A stretch of DNA of 64,000 nt from Microbacterium natoriense (GTDB lineage Bacteria > Actinomycetota > Actinomycetes > Actinomycetales > Microbacteriaceae). A model generated the notes under the pieces. That model was not told the origin of the DNA, ran no database searches, and was given only the letters and a program-made list of their open reading frames with translations. A program made the position numbers and the translations under genes. The stretch spans positions 3,348,001-3,412,000 of the forward strand of contig NZ_JAUSXV010000001.1 of assembly GCF_030816295.1 (NCBI RefSeq). Direction: 5' to 3'. Of this stretch, positions 59,191 through 64,000 are shown one piece after another. Positions within the stretch are counted from its first letter, which is position 1. Each line of letters opens with the position of its first letter.

Positions 59191-59919
59191 ATGAGCACCG
59201 TGCACCCCGAACTGCGCCGCCCCGACGGCTCCCCGCTGCGCATCCTCGCCGTCGACGACGAGCAGATGCTGACCGACCTGCTCGCCATGGCGCTGCGGAT
59301 GGAGGGCTGGGAGGTGCGCACCGCATCCTCGGGCCTGGAAGCCCTTCAGGTCGCGCGCGAGTTCGAGCCCGACGCACTGGTGCTCGACATCATGATGCCC
59401 GACCTCGACGGCTTGTCGGTGCTGAAGCGCCTGCGCGAGTCGGGGAGCCTCGTGCCCGTGCTCTTCCTGACCGCGAAGGACGCAGTGGGCGACCGAGTCG
59501 CTGGCCTCACCGCGGGCGGCGACGACTACGTCACCAAGCCCTTCAGTCTGGAGGAGGTCATCGCACGCTTGCGCGCGATCATCCGCCGCACCGGGCACGC
59601 CACCGCCGACGACGGCCAGTCGATCCTGCGCGTCGCCGATCTCTCCCTCAACGAAGACAGCCACGAGGTGGTCCGCGACGGCACCGAGATCGAGCTCACA
59701 GCCACCGAGTTCGAGCTGCTGCGCTACCTGATGCGCAACGAGCGCCGTGTGCTCTCCAAGGCGCAGATCCTCGACCGGGTGTGGAGCTACGACTTCGGCG
59801 GCAAGTCGTCGGTCGTCGAGCTCTACATCTCCTACCTGCGCAAGAAGATCGACGCGGGGCGCACGCCCCTGCTTCACACCGTGCGCGGCGTGGGCTACAT
59901 GATCAAGGCTCCACAGTGA
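59191..59919 (+). CDS. OmpR-family response regulator
   Basis: A 242-residue two-component regulator. The receiver domain has the acidic pair in LAVDDEQ, the phospho-acceptor Asp66 in VLDIMMPDLDG, a Thr in FLTAKD and the Lys in VTKPFS. The C-terminal winged helix (ELTATEFELLRYLMRNERRVLSKAQILDRVW, ELYISYLRKKID, HTVRGVGYMIK) binds DNA. It is followed by its kinase with a four-base overlap. The direct repeats just upstream suggest autoregulation. The stimulus is not known; it resembles the mycobacterial TcrX/MprA-like group only in general. Confidence 0.94.
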   Translation: MSTVHPELRRPDGSPLRILAVDDEQMLTDLLAMALRMEGWEVRTASSGLEALQVAREFEPDALVLDIMMPDLDGLSVLKRLRESGSLVPVLFLTAKDAVGDRVAGLTAGGDDYVTKPFSLEEVIARLRAIIRRTGHATADDGQSILRVADLSLNEDSHEVVRDGTEIELTATEFELLRYLMRNERRVLSKAQILDRVWSYDFGGKSSVVELYISYLRKKIDAGRTPLLHTVRGVGYMIKAPQ

Positions 59920-61406
59920 GCTCCACGAGGATGACGCGCCGGCCGCTGACTCTGCAGGCGAGGCTGATGACCGCGGTCATCGGCTTCGTGTCGCTCATCC
60001 TCGTGATCGTCGCCGTCATCACCACCGCGATTCTCGGGAACACTCTCGAACGTCAGCTGGACGACAAGCTCCTGTACTACTCGAACGCTTACCGCCAGTA
60101 TGTGGAGCAGTTCCCGCCCGCGGGCGTGACCGCACAGAATGTGCTCGGGGGCAAGCAGGTTCCTCCGGGTCTGCTGTTCGCGGTGTCCAGTGCGACCACC
60201 GGTACCACCGGCCTCGTCGTAGCCGCCACCGAGAAGGACTTCGGGACGTCCACGGCCCTCACGACCGAACAGCTCATGCAGATCAACGACGCTCTCGACG
60301 ACAGTCACACCGGAACGGTCTCGATCTCGGGGATCGGCTCGTACCGCGTCTCGATAGTTTCGACGAGCAACGGCACCGTCGTGGTGACGGGTCTCCCCCG
60401 CGGCGACATCCAGAACCAGCTCGCCACTCTGCTCACGGTCATCGTGCTCGCGACGCTCGGCGGCCTCATCCTGCTCGCCCTCACCACCGCGATCACTATC
60501 CGCGTCGGTCTGCGCCCGCTGCGCGCCGTCGCGGCGACGGCGACTCGCGTCGCCAACCAGCCCCTGGACCGGGGCGAGGTCGAGATCACCGAACGCGTCC
60601 CGGCATCCGAAGCCGACCCTCGCACCGAGACCGGTCTGGTCGGCGCAGCGCTGAACAAGCTCCTCGATCACGTGAACACATCGCTGTCCGCTCGTCAGCG
60701 CAACGAAGAGCGCATGCGCCAGTTCGTCGCCGACGCGAGCCACGAGCTGCGGACGCCGCTCGCGTCGATCCGCGGATACTCCGAGCTGTCGCTGCGTGCG
60801 CTCAGCCAGCAGCAGGGTCCCGCGGCGATCGAGGGGACGACCACTTCGCTCGAGCGCATCCAGGCGCAATCCCTGCGGATGACCAGGCTCGTCGAGGATC
60901 TGCTCCTGCTGGCCCGACTCGACGAGGGACGCGAACTCGTCTACGGCACGGTGGATCTCGCTCAGCTCGCCCTCGAGGGATTGTCGGATGCTCGGCCGAC
61001 GGCCCCTGAGCACCGGTGGAACATCGACGTGCCCGACGAGCCGGTCGTCGTGGTCGGCGATACCGGCCGTCTGCATCAGGTCGTCACAAATCTGCTCGCG
61101 AACGCGCGGACGCATACCCCTGCGGGCACGGAGATCACGCTGAGCGTGACGCGCGAGGGCGACGAGGCGGTTCTTCGAGTGCATGACGACGGGCCCGGCA
61201 TCGATCCGGCGGTGCATGAGGAGCTCTTCGCGCGGTTCGCCCGCGGCGACAGCTCGCGCGCCCGGCAGACCGGCGGAACCGGTCTGGGCCTCGCGATCGC
61301 CAAGGCGATCGTGGAAGGTCACCACGGCCGCATCGAGGTCTCCAGCGTCCCTGGCGACACCACGTTCTCGGTGCACCTGCCCCTGAGCCCGGTCCTGGGC
61401 GCCTGA
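59916..61406 (+). CDS. Sensor histidine kinase
   Basis: A 496-residue membrane kinase. Two membrane helices (about residues 15-42 and 168-192) enclose an extracellular sensor region of about 125 residues. HAMP segment follows, then the H-box FVADASHELRTPLASI with His276, and the ATP-binding N-box NLLANARTHT, DDGPGIDP, FARFARGDSS and GGTGLGLAIAKAIVEGH. The GTG overlaps the regulator stop (GTGA), with AAGG seven bases ahead; ATG 59931 is an alternative. The sensor part has no recognised domain. Confidence 0.94.
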   Translation: MSSTRMTRRPLTLQARLMTAVIGFVSLILVIVAVITTAILGNTLERQLDDKLLYYSNAYRQYVEQFPPAGVTAQNVLGGKQVPPGLLFAVSSATTGTTGLVVAATEKDFGTSTALTTEQLMQINDALDDSHTGTVSISGIGSYRVSIVSTSNGTVVVTGLPRGDIQNQLATLLTVIVLATLGGLILLALTTAITIRVGLRPLRAVAATATRVANQPLDRGEVEITERVPASEADPRTETGLVGAALNKLLDHVNTSLSARQRNEERMRQFVADASHELRTPLASIRGYSELSLRALSQQQGPAAIEGTTTSLERIQAQSLRMTRLVEDLLLLARLDEGRELVYGTVDLAQLALEGLSDARPTAPEHRWNIDVPDEPVVVVGDTGRLHQVVTNLLANARTHTPAGTEITLSVTREGDEAVLRVHDDGPGIDPAVHEELFARFARGDSSRARQTGGTGLGLAIAKAIVEGHHGRIEVSSVPGDTTFSVHLPLSPVLGA

Positions 61407-61421: not shown

Positions 61422-61510
61422 CGATCACTTTGTCGGGAGGATTCCGGCCTGTCGGGTGGTTTCGACTAGACGCGCCGGACTACAAGGGGCGCCTCCCGAC
61501 GAAGTGATCG
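61422..61510. repeat. Palindromic element E1, left flank of the DUF559-like gene
   Basis: Outer arms CGATCACTTTGTCGGGAGG (61422-61440) and CCTCCCGACGAAGTGATCG (61492-61510) pair over 19 bp with one T-G mismatch. Nested inside are TCCGGC/GCCGGA (61443-61448 with 61474-61479) and GTCG/CGAC (61451-61454 with 61463-61466). It shares blocks with E2 (TGTCGGGAG, GGTTT, CGCGCCGGA, CTCCCGACGAA) in the same order. It may also terminate the kinase transcript. Confidence 0.75.
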
Positions 61511-61582
61511 GCGATCGGATGGATTCTCCACAGATTCGGACGCGGCATCCCATCGGTCGCCTGCACGGACGACGATCGACGC

Positions 61583-62416
61583 ATGCAATCCGCGGCCTTC
61601 ATCCTCGCTCACCACGGCGGCATCGCCCGAGGCACGCTGCTCGGGCAGTACGGCTTAAGCAGGCGGATGCTGCACGCAGAGCTGAACGCGGGACGAATCG
61701 TCCGCGTGCGTCAGGGCGTGTTCGCCCTCCCGACGACCGCTCCGGACATCATCACCGCCGCGGAGCACGGCGGCGCCCTCACGTGCCGGCGAGCTCTTCG
61801 ACTGCACGGAGTCTGGGTACTCGATGACGACCCGCAGATTCATGTCTGGCTCGGCGGTCGAGGGCGATCGCACCACACGGACTGCGAATGCACTGGGCAC
61901 TACCACGCAGGCACAGCGGGCCTCGGACTCGCGCCGATCGAAGACGTGCTCGTGCATGCGTACCGCTGCGCATCAGACGAGGTGTTCTTCGCGGCGCTCG
62001 AATCGGCGTTGGTGCAGCGAAAGGTCAGGCGGGCGGGTCTCGCTCGCATCCGCGCGCGGATTCCGTCCCATGGCCGCTGGCTCGTCGACCTCGCGCGGGA
62101 CGATGCTGACAGTGGGCTCGAGTCGCTGCTGCGGCTCCGGGTGCACCTTCTCGGCATCACCCTCGAGTGCCAAGTCGAGATCCCTACCGTCGGCCGCGTG
62201 GACTTCGTTATCGCGGGGCGGTTGATCCTCGAGGCCGATGGCAGAGAGAACCACGAGAGCGACACGAAGCGCCACAGCGACCGGGTGCGGGATGCCGCGG
62301 CATCCGCCCTCGGATACGAGACTCTGCGTTTCGACTACGCGCAGATCGTCCACGACTGGCCGTCCGTCGAAGCCGCGATCATCGCGGCCGTCGTTCGGCT
62401 GCACGAGCGCGACTGA
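61583..62416 (+). CDS. AbiEi-like/DUF559 protein with Vsr-type nuclease fold
   Basis: A 277-residue protein. The N-terminal about 100 residues read as a winged-helix AbiEi-antitoxin-like domain (GGIARGTLLGQYGLSRRMLHAELNAGRIVRVRQGVFALP). The C-terminal 100 residues carry a DUF559/very-short-patch-repair-like fold with possible catalytic acids Glu180 (DSGLESLLRL), Asp207 (VGRVDFVIAG) and Glu217 (ILEADGRENHESD). It contains a rare TTA codon. It sits alone between palindromic elements E1 and E2, and its stop codon lies at the edge of E2. No partner toxin gene is adjacent. Function is not established; nuclease activity is inferred from fold resemblance. Confidence 0.78.
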   Translation: MQSAAFILAHHGGIARGTLLGQYGLSRRMLHAELNAGRIVRVRQGVFALPTTAPDIITAAEHGGALTCRRALRLHGVWVLDDDPQIHVWLGGRGRSHHTDCECTGHYHAGTAGLGLAPIEDVLVHAYRCASDEVFFAALESALVQRKVRRAGLARIRARIPSHGRWLVDLARDDADSGLESLLRLRVHLLGITLECQVEIPTVGRVDFVIAGRLILEADGRENHESDTKRHSDRVRDAAASALGYETLRFDYAQIVHDWPSVEAAIIAAVVRLHERD

Positions 62417-62498
62417 TCGCTCTGTCGGGAGCCGCAGGCGGTTTTCCAGCGCGTCGCGCCGGAAGGCCCCGACGGAGCGGAATCCTCCCGACGAATCG
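62415..62498. repeat. Palindromic element E2, right flank of the DUF559-like gene
   Basis: Starts GATCGCTCTGTCGGGAG and ends CTCCCGACGAATCG; the arms GTCGGGAG (62424-62431) and CTCCCGAC (62485-62492) pair over 8 bp. The interior has GGTTTTCC and CGCGCCGGA as in E1. Its right end GGAATCCTCCCGAC (62479-62492) is an exact inverted copy of the start of E1 (61432-61445). It overlaps the stop of the gene. Confidence 0.72.
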
Positions 62499-62521
62499 AA
62501 CGCGGAAGGCCCGAGCGCGGC

Positions 62522-64000
62522 TCAGTACCCGGCGAACGCGTCGGTCGTGAGGTTGTGCGCCTTCTGCAGGGCCGGGGCGAGATCGGCGATCAGCCGCGGC
62601 GGGCCGGAGATGAACGCGTGGCGGGATGCGAGGTCTGCCACGTGCTTCTCCAGGGCCACGGCGTCCAGCCGCGCGCCCTGCGCCCAGGTCCAGCGCGCGG
62701 GCAGGTCCGTGGGCTCTTCGCGGGTGAAGACCACGACGCGGGCGCCGGTCGCGGCGAGCTCATCGCGGAACGCGAGCTCGGCGGGGTCGGACGCCACGTA
62801 CACGAGCACGACGTCGCGCTTCTCCCCCGTCACCTGCAGCTGCCGGAGCTGGGACACGAACGGCGTCACTCCGATGCCGGCCGCCACCATCAGGACGGGT
62901 ACATCGCCCTTCGGCAGCAGGAAGTCGCCCCAGGTGCCGGTCACCGCGAGCGTGGCGCCCGGCTGGGCTGCGGCGAGTGCGCGCTTGTAGCTCGACGGAT
63001 GCTTCTGGTCGCCGTCCTTGTATGCGATCCGCAGCGTCGGAAGGTCACCGGGCGCCGAGACGATGCTGAACTCGCGGCGCGTTCCGCGGGCGTCCGGGCG
63101 ACGGTGCGGGACGTCGAGCTCGAGATACTGGCCGGGAAGGAACCGCAGCCGGCTCTTGGTGCGGAACGTGAGTTCCTGCACGGTGGGCGTGATGAACGCG
63201 CGCTTCTCGAGCGTGAGGCGCACCGATCCGCGCACCGCGAACGCGAAGGCCAGCAGGTTGCCGATCAGCAGCGCGCGCTCCTGCCCGAGCGTGAAACCTG
63301 CGACGAAGATCGGCCATCCGGCGAGCACGCCGACCAGGGCAGCCACCGAGAACTGCTGCCAGCGCCGTGGGGGCAGCGTCAGCGGCTCCGAGAGCATGAA
63401 CGCGCCGAGGAAGAAGTACGGCGACTGCAGCACTGCGAACGACAACGCCTGGCCGGCGTCGAAGGGCAGACCGCCCTGGGTGAGCTGCACGTACTGGCGC
63501 AGCAGGGAGACCGCGATCGCGATGACGAGGAACACCAGCACGAGCCGCACCTTCTCGGTGCGCCACAGCACGAACAGTCCGAGGATCACGACCGGTACGA
63601 ACAGCGCGGGGGTGCCGACCCACCACGACGAGGTCGTGCCGAGACCTGTGATCGTGACGACGGCGGCGCCGAACGCCGCGGGGTTCAGGATGTGCCGTCC
63701 GCGCCACGCGATCACGTACTTCGAGACGCTGGCCAGGGCTCCGGCCAGGGCGAGCCCGCCGAGGGCCTCGGGAGCGAGGCCGGATGCCGGCGCGAGGACG
63801 AACAGCAGGATCAGCGCGGTGACCAGCGACGACTCGATGCGCCATGGCAGATGAAGCAGCCGCTGCACGGCGGCGTCGACTGCGGAGATCACCACGGCGA
63901 GGACGACGAAGGAGACGAGGATCTCGAACGGCTGCGGCGCGACCAGCCCCGCGAACGAGAGCAGCTCGGCGAACAGAGCCAGCGCGAGGAGCGAGAACAG
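62522..64000 (-). CDS. NqrB/RnfD-like membrane domain fused to ferredoxin-NADP reductase domain, 5' partial
   Basis: The frame is open to the right edge of the window, so the start lies beyond 64000; the GTG at 63895 is internal. At least 492 residues are visible. The first about 260 form eight or more hydrophobic helices with an NqrB/RnfD-like look (GRHILNPAAFGAAVVTITGL). The rest is an FNR-type flavoprotein: QYLELDVPH, RREFSIVSAPGD (FAD), AGIGVTPFVSQLRQL (NAD(P) binding), and a terminal GPPRLIADL. It probably moves electrons from NAD(P)H through FAD to a membrane acceptor. Partner subunits are not in the window. Confidence 0.82.
   Translation of the reverse strand: MFSLLALALFAELLSFAGLVAPQPFEILVSFVVLAVVISAVDAAVQRLLHLPWRIESSLVTALILLFVLAPASGLAPEALGGLALAGALASVSKYVIAWRGRHILNPAAFGAAVVTITGLGTTSSWWVGTPALFVPVVILGLFVLWRTEKVRLVLVFLVIAIAVSLLRQYVQLTQGGLPFDAGQALSFAVLQSPYFFLGAFMLSEPLTLPPRRWQQFSVAALVGVLAGWPIFVAGFTLGQERALLIGNLLAFAFAVRGSVRLTLEKRAFITPTVQELTFRTKSRLRFLPGQYLELDVPHRRPDARGTRREFSIVSAPGDLPTLRIAYKDGDQKHPSSYKRALAAAQPGATLAVTGTWGDFLLPKGDVPVLMVAAGIGVTPFVSQLRQLQVTGEKRDVVLVYVASDPAELAFRDELAATGARVVVFTREEPTDLPARWTWAQGARLDAVALEKHVADLASRHAFISGPPRLIADLAPALQKAHNLTTDAFAGY

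Follow-up and report, generated by a model that had tools for sequence, protein, structure and literature searches.

In the systems formed by REPINs (doublets of repetitive extragenic palindromic, REP, sequences) and REP-associated tyrosine transposases (RAYTs), as the parts of the literature drawn on here describe them, extragenic palindromes are dispersed over the genome, flank the enzyme gene and co-evolve with the enzyme (PMC3116915, PMC8266576, PMC3733652). REPs lie mostly between convergent or unidirectional genes (PMC3733652), REPINs persist in Escherichia coli genomes without a RAYT gene (PMC8049555), and for one class of palindromic repeats, the CGTC-tagged REPs, the authors did not find a transposase partner (PMC3733652, section 16). 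Here we describe an arrangement of this kind with a different enzyme in Microbacterium natoriense. The window, i.e., the whole 64,000-nt stretch analysed, covers positions 3348001-3412000 of a 4.19-Mb single-contig genome (G000). Between two convergent genes it carries, in this order, a palindromic element (E1), a gene for a 277-residue DUF559 protein and a second element (E2). We found that matching long palindromes usually stand on both sides of the Microbacterium genes for this homing-enzyme-like nuclease; the window unit is one of many cases, each with its own sequence word, and is not special to the window gene. The partnership is real, genus-wide and REPIN/RAYT-like in behaviour, and its enzyme is not the one that defines REPIN/RAYT. 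The original prediction, made from the letters of this stretch, had drawn an analogy to REP-associated transposases, which is apt in behaviour. The partnership is apparently undescribed so far, and among the papers listed in our open-access literature searches we saw none tying DUF559 or AbiEi-nuclease genes to palindromic repeats.

E1 had been predicted to be a 19-nt inverted repeat with one mismatch, and its arms (61422-61440 and 61492-61510, 19 nt) are indeed 95% complementary. E2 aligns with E1 in inverted orientation over 88 nt with 70% complementarity. The similarity score of the two elements is 23.5, whereas the control, 1888 random 400/830/400 pieces from the remainder of the window, reaches 16.0 at its 99th percentile and 18.5 at most. 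The E1-E2 similarity thus exceeds chance, and the claim that the two elements are related holds. Arm length by itself is not decisive against chance: when one mismatch is allowed, the longest inverted pair between 61300 and 62700 measures 19 nt, and 60 dinucleotide shuffles reach up to 19 (mean 14.9); when none is allowed, it measures 16 nt, and the shuffles reach up to 18 (mean 12.4). This control includes self-overlapping palindromes. The 15-bp perfect inverted pair linking the start of E1 with the end of E2 is present by reading. The gene's stop codon, said to overlap E2, does so with the E2 boundary as first drawn, but the clear E2 arm begins only at 62423. E1 also contains a 19-nt direct repeat (61431/61450), absent from the original prediction, which is a family trait. 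Insertion sequences and transposons are marked by terminal repeats together with a target-site duplication; here the flanking repeats match, and no short duplication was visible by eye at E1/E2.

To place the unit among its relatives, we compared the flanks of 89 homologous genes, 88 of them from the same genus, comprising 29 of 30 best-per-genome loci (the truncated L059 was excluded) and 60 further copies. The two 400-nt flanks of each gene were matched against each other, and the best score exceeded the control 99th percentile (16.0) in 76 of the 89 homologues and the control maximum (18.5) in 70; L095 scores 44 with masked N runs barred from matching, and both totals hold. In a second genome set, which partly overlaps the first, 23 of 28 loci score above 16. 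Palindrome pairs are therefore tied to these DUF559 genes, as had been proposed. The 13 copies under the threshold include L087 and L107, with core elements (see below) on both sides, and L088, with one on one side; L039, L043, L049, and L051, also under the threshold, have an element on one side by eye. In some units, L081 and L052 among them, the equivalents of E1 and E2 are nearly identical, loops included, which fits either one element duplicated around the gene or gene conversion. The best flank pair of L047, L069, and L071 is a terminator-like hairpin and not a word element. Such hairpins (GGATGCCGCGAGG...CCTCGCGGCATCC type) stand at both outer sides of these three units, are more alike within than between genomes and are identical at 43/43 positions in L069; they represent either a long target duplication or gene conversion. 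The upstream flank of L179 holds a tandem array of about six head-to-tail word units.

Elements of the family are imperfect dyads some 70-92 nt long. In 46 of 152 elements a word recurs at an offset of exactly 19 nt, against 2-9 at every other offset from 5 to 44. In a sister clade, an inner core, CGACACGCCG-N18/19-CGGCGTGTCG, is constant and the outer word varies gene by gene; this core also served to search the 89 genes, with up to 3 mismatches allowed, and 53 flanks were found. Across 28 core elements, both sides changed at 16 of 17 outer pairs, pairing was kept in 75.9% of the outer cells and 89.0% of the inner ones, and the covariation score was 0.328 (shuffles, 0.127; slid structures, no more than 0.103), a count favoured by the fact that the dyad structure was derived from the same 28 sequences. 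Only about 16 of roughly 360 paired outer cells are G-U, and such scarcity of wobble pairs favours a dyad acting at the DNA level over RNA hairpins. In each of four genomes, the elements agree in word and core and vary in spacer and loop. No GTAG or CGTC tag was read beside the dyad in the four-genome consensus, for which no dedicated tag search was run.

The words track the gene. In the protein tree, adjacent genes tend toward a common word and distant clades differ. Comparing words among 66 genes (L047, L069, L071, L095, and pairs scoring 18.5 or less were excluded), we found an element similarity above 20 in 70% of between-genome pairs at 70-90% protein identity (n = 27), in 14% at 60-70% (n = 153) and in 3% at 40-50% (n = 987). 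Different genes within one genome reached it in 3% (n = 38 pairs). The words diverge along with the protein and go with the gene, not the genome. Correlation with the winged helix-turn-helix, middle, helical or nuclease segment of the protein was weak in each case (Spearman 0.08-0.18) and did not single out the part that reads the word.

Related palindromes also occur as solo copies dispersed in the genomes with no nuclease gene nearby, as anticipated; in the genomes examined, most of them sit where genes end. The core pattern is present in 17 of 58 genomes, and the reversed control gave zero matches in all 58. A covariance model of the sister-clade dyad (R2), whose counts are lower bounds that include both strands and gene-flanking copies, matched at least 28-101 times in each of 14 chosen genomes and, at a stricter threshold, in at least 27 of 88 relatives. 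From the best among the matches listed, away from known genes, we drew 60 dispersed loci in eight genomes, one from the core-pattern search and the rest from R2. These stretches encode no DUF559 homologue; 56 of them contained 77 elements, and L225, L247, L251, and L272 contained none by the criteria used. For 59 of 76 dispersed copies (one weakly symmetric element was dropped) the best-matching gene flank lies in the copy's own genome, with a mean score of 13.3 vs. 6.8. When outer arms were assigned to resident-gene flanks across the eight genomes, the true assignment was the single best of 40,320, a test not wholly independent of descent since G000/G021 and G020/G072 share words. In G021, the genes L033 and L080 differ in word, and each of the two words is also present as dispersed copies. 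Palindromes scattered without any link to DUF559 genes, the outcome named in advance as fatal to the idea, are thus not what these eight genomes hold: their solo copies carry the resident gene's word. L234 and L237 also contain identical whole elements in tandem, at distances of 173 and 232 nt.

R2 matches E2 weakly (E 0.047) and leaves E1 unmatched, and the window's own word was traced by an exact pattern instead (TGTCGGGAG-N38-62-CTCCCGACA). It is found in 6 of 88 genomes, namely in the four with a word-bearing gene at the window locus (G000 1, G002 5, G021 8, and G022 6 copies, of which 0, 1, 2, and 1, respectively, flank the gene) and in G005 and G034, with one copy apiece. The solo copy in G000 lies at 1877159, with a weaker copy at 1959733. 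Among 53 same-genus genomes, own word and gene are associated (Fisher test, 5e-5). The same holds for core elements and core-clade gene (17/3/8/25, 1.9e-5), also with genomes holding no more than two flanking sites' worth of matches set as without (15/5/5/28, 2.2e-5); 17 genomes were assigned to the core clade by the tree, whereas G016, G044, and G046 were assigned by score band only.

The site between the kinase and oxidoreductase genes that border the window unit was read in 30 genomes, 260 nt from the stop codon. Five genomes (G000, G021, G002, G022, G029) have element-gene-element with the gene in either orientation, and in G005 an element of this family stands alone, with the gene absent. 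By eye, G001, G052, and G011 show other palindromes and the remaining genomes none. The comparison of empty and filled sites called for in the original prediction therefore finds this locus without element, with a solo element and as a full unit. Orthologues lacking the elements had been named as a second fatal outcome: close homologues in G021, G002, G022, and G029 bear elements, whereas a distant DUF559-like gene at this site in G018 (E 2.7e-5) has unpaired flanks. At a second convergent site, G029 has an element with the G029 word plus partial repeats, G021 two elements with the G021 word and G001 two core-type elements; G002, G014, and G023 have other short hairpins and no core element. 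Occupancy of orthologous sites thus differs, which indicates gain or loss of copies from one species to another; those in G029 and G021 bear the carrier's word. Two other repeats were seen at these sites: a short tandem repeat (TGTGAGTTCTCGTTCACATATCG type) in the orthologous gap of G012 (L145), past the oxidoreductase stop codon, and a short palindrome (CTTCCCGTGCACTCG...CGAGTGCACGGGAAG type) at the second site, perfect in G002 (L359) and with a mismatch in G014 (L362).

The coordinates of the window unit are collected in Table 1. E1 begins 15 nt after the end of the histidine kinase gene, whose coordinates are those of the longest open reading frame (the real start is probably internal), and 19 nt separate E2 from the end of the oxidoreductase gene, whose RnfD-like part is under the Pfam cut-off. 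An Rfam scan of the window gave nothing at the gathering threshold.

Table 1. Features of the nuclease-palindrome unit and its surroundings, in window positions.
Feature	Position	Strand	Remarks
E1, imperfect dyad	61422..61510		outer arms TTTGTCGGGAGG / CCTCCCGACGAA; genome pattern match G000:C1:3409431-3409500
E2, second copy, inverted relative to E1	62415..62502		arms TGTCGGGAG / CTCCCGAC at 62423-62492
15-bp perfect inverted pair, left half	61432..61446	+	read from sequence
15-bp perfect inverted pair, right half	62478..62492	-	read from sequence
TGTCGGG word, twice within E1 at a 19-nt offset (61431 and 61450)	61431..61463		direct repeat
Half-core GACGCGCCGG in E1, resembling CGACACGCCGG, the inner core conserved in the sister clade	61469..61478		read from sequence
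DUF559 gene, AbiEi-like part and EDxHD/Vsr-like nuclease	61583..62416	+	277 aa; Pfam, AlphaFold2 model, PDB matches
Left neighbour, sensor histidine kinase	59781..61406	+	HisKA and HATPase_c; orthologues adjoin the site in relatives
Right neighbour, NAD-binding oxidoreductase with RnfD-like part	62522..64000	-	continues past the window edge

The window protein consists of an AbiEi-like part (residues 1-172) and an EDxHD/Vsr-like nuclease (177-275). A match to Pfam PF04480 (DUF559; E 5.3e-7) and structural matches of its AlphaFold2 model (predicted local distance difference test score 90.7) uphold the assignment of this gene as AbiEi/DUF559-like. In comparison with PDB entries, the model shows the fold of an AbiEi antitoxin joined to that of an I-Bth0305I/Vsr-like EDxHD nuclease. 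The alignment of 89 copies adds the conserved acidic residues: E180, D207, D219, and D233 are invariant (1.00), which argues for a working nuclease. In the AbiEi part, a set of Cys/His residues (C68, H87, C101, C103, H106, C129) is conserved in 90-100% of the copies and might bind metal. NCBIfam has no family for two of the proteins, and PADLOC gives weak AbiEi matches only (3.3e-5 at best for the window protein). Named relatives of the gene come from Microbacterium and one Agromyces metagenome-assembled genome, and the source names for such Microbacterium genes are antitoxin-domain proteins or "very-short-patch-repair endonucleases". G000 has 11 DUF559 matches genome-wide, seven of them, the window gene included, over the curated cut-off.

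We consider it probable that these observations reflect a partnership in which an AbiEi-like DNA-binder fused to an EDxHD nuclease reads a long dyad with a gene-private word. That the protein recognises the palindromes is likely, and their active spread by the nuclease is a good hypothesis. The protein would read a two-fold symmetric site of about 70-92 bp, composed of a gene-private outer word and, in the main sister clade, the constant inner core. Binding would be by the AbiEi part, with the protein assembled as a dimer or a larger oligomer, and the EDxHD part would occasionally cut at or close to the site. Copying by repair after the cut could then keep the copies alike and spread them, and the gene, on moving into a site that already holds an element, would turn this one element into two around itself. 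In a broader form, which we put forward tentatively and hold slightly short of even odds, actinobacterial AbiEi-EDxHD nucleases would move a whole REPIN-like class of repeats by cutting double-stranded DNA at their own word, with repair-driven copying of palindrome and gene and several independent, non-cross-reacting populations per genome. The REP-enzyme partnership would then have evolved a second time, through double-strand homing in place of single-strand HUH transposition.

AbiEi antitoxins act as regulators of transcription and bind inverted repeats, and the Pfam and PADLOC names would fit a purely regulatory role as well. The AbiEi part would then bind the flanks to control its own gene, the dispersed copies would be regulator or organiser sites of the chromosome, the nuclease would be inactive or rarely used, and nothing would move. 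This account explains the matching of word and protein equally well; nevertheless, we judge it unlikely. The second element sits 3' of the gene, E180, D207, D219, and D233 are invariant, and the occupancy of orthologous sites varies among species. In addition, divergent, i.e., promoter-type, placement is rare. With gene directions called from a codon score, for which a single gene family served as both training and test set (150/150), we placed 70 units (32 convergent, 11 co-directional, 2 divergent, 23 unsure, 2 too short), 18 own-word solos (9 convergent, 2 co-directional, 0 divergent, 7 unsure) and 56 core clusters (19 convergent, 19 co-directional, 3 divergent, 15 unsure), so that 2/45, 0/11, and 3/41 callable places, respectively, are divergent.

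The convergent and downstream placement would also suit palindromes that came first, as REP-like hairpins at transcript ends spread by another enzyme or by slippage or gene conversion, with the nuclease as a free-standing homing gene that inserts there. The tandem arrays of L179, L234, and L237, the doubled terminator-like hairpins around L047, L069, and L071, and an element population in G011 that has no known gene point the same way. Yet words go with the gene and not with the genome, and dispersed words match the resident gene, so that palindrome and gene are not independent. As the dyad also has few wobble pairs, we regard this explanation as quite improbable. AbiEi is part of an abortive-infection system, and a defence or addiction role, in which the nuclease attacks DNA with or without the palindrome and the copies mark the chromosome, would fit this tie and the weak PADLOC matches but is very improbable, the two adjacent genes being a histidine kinase and an oxidoreductase and neither a toxin nor a methylase.

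Several results weigh against a nuclease-palindrome partnership. In a class-wide sample, 9 of 28 DUF559 genes were over the 99th percentile of a mismatched-pair control, and by eye L319 alone clearly has the same architecture. The best match of 17 of the 76 dispersed copies is to a gene of another genome, and evidence from dispersed copies covers a minority of the 89 genes. Of 33 genomes that lack a core-clade gene, 8 have core elements, and of 20 that have such a gene, 3 have none. In G011, four core elements (L332-L334) have in common the word GTGCAGATCGGCGGGAG or a one-base variant, and two checked DUF559 genes are flanked otherwise, leaving a population without known partner. Since REPINs, too, are kept in E. 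coli genomes that lack RAYT, partnerless copies alone do not refute the partnership.

If an EDxHD nuclease with an AbiEi-like reader does spread palindromes, REP-enzyme partnerships arose more than once, by different chemistry, and the DUF559/AbiEi genes of Microbacterium gain a testable job. Each private word also supplies an enzyme together with its long target site, as a pair open to direct assay. REP-like palindromes with no identified mover are a standing puzzle, the CGTC repeats (PMC3733652, section 16) being an example; they are named here for this likeness alone and not for sequence kinship.

The Microbacterium units differ from the AbiEi antitoxin of the type IV toxin-antitoxin system AbiE in that the AbiEi part is fused to a nuclease and neither adjacent gene encodes an AbiEii nucleotidyltransferase toxin. 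Unlike I-Bth0305I, other EDxHD homing endonucleases and Vsr, the protein has an AbiEi-like DNA-binding part, no intron was seen, and the proposed target is present in many copies, including at the flanks of the nuclease gene. A homing endonuclease cuts an allele without its gene and is copied into that allele; at the window locus, the empty, solo-element and full states are all represented. In arrangement the units resemble REPIN/RAYT (REPtron; TnpA_REP), where palindromes likewise flank the enzyme gene, are dispersed in the genome and lie between convergent or co-directional genes. In contrast to that system, the enzyme identified here by Pfam and the model is an AbiEi-EDxHD nuclease and not an HUH Y1 transposase, the dyads measure 70-92 bp, many with 19-nt word repeats, where a palindrome of 20-40 bp characterises REPIN/RAYT, and one genome carries several genes, each with its own word.
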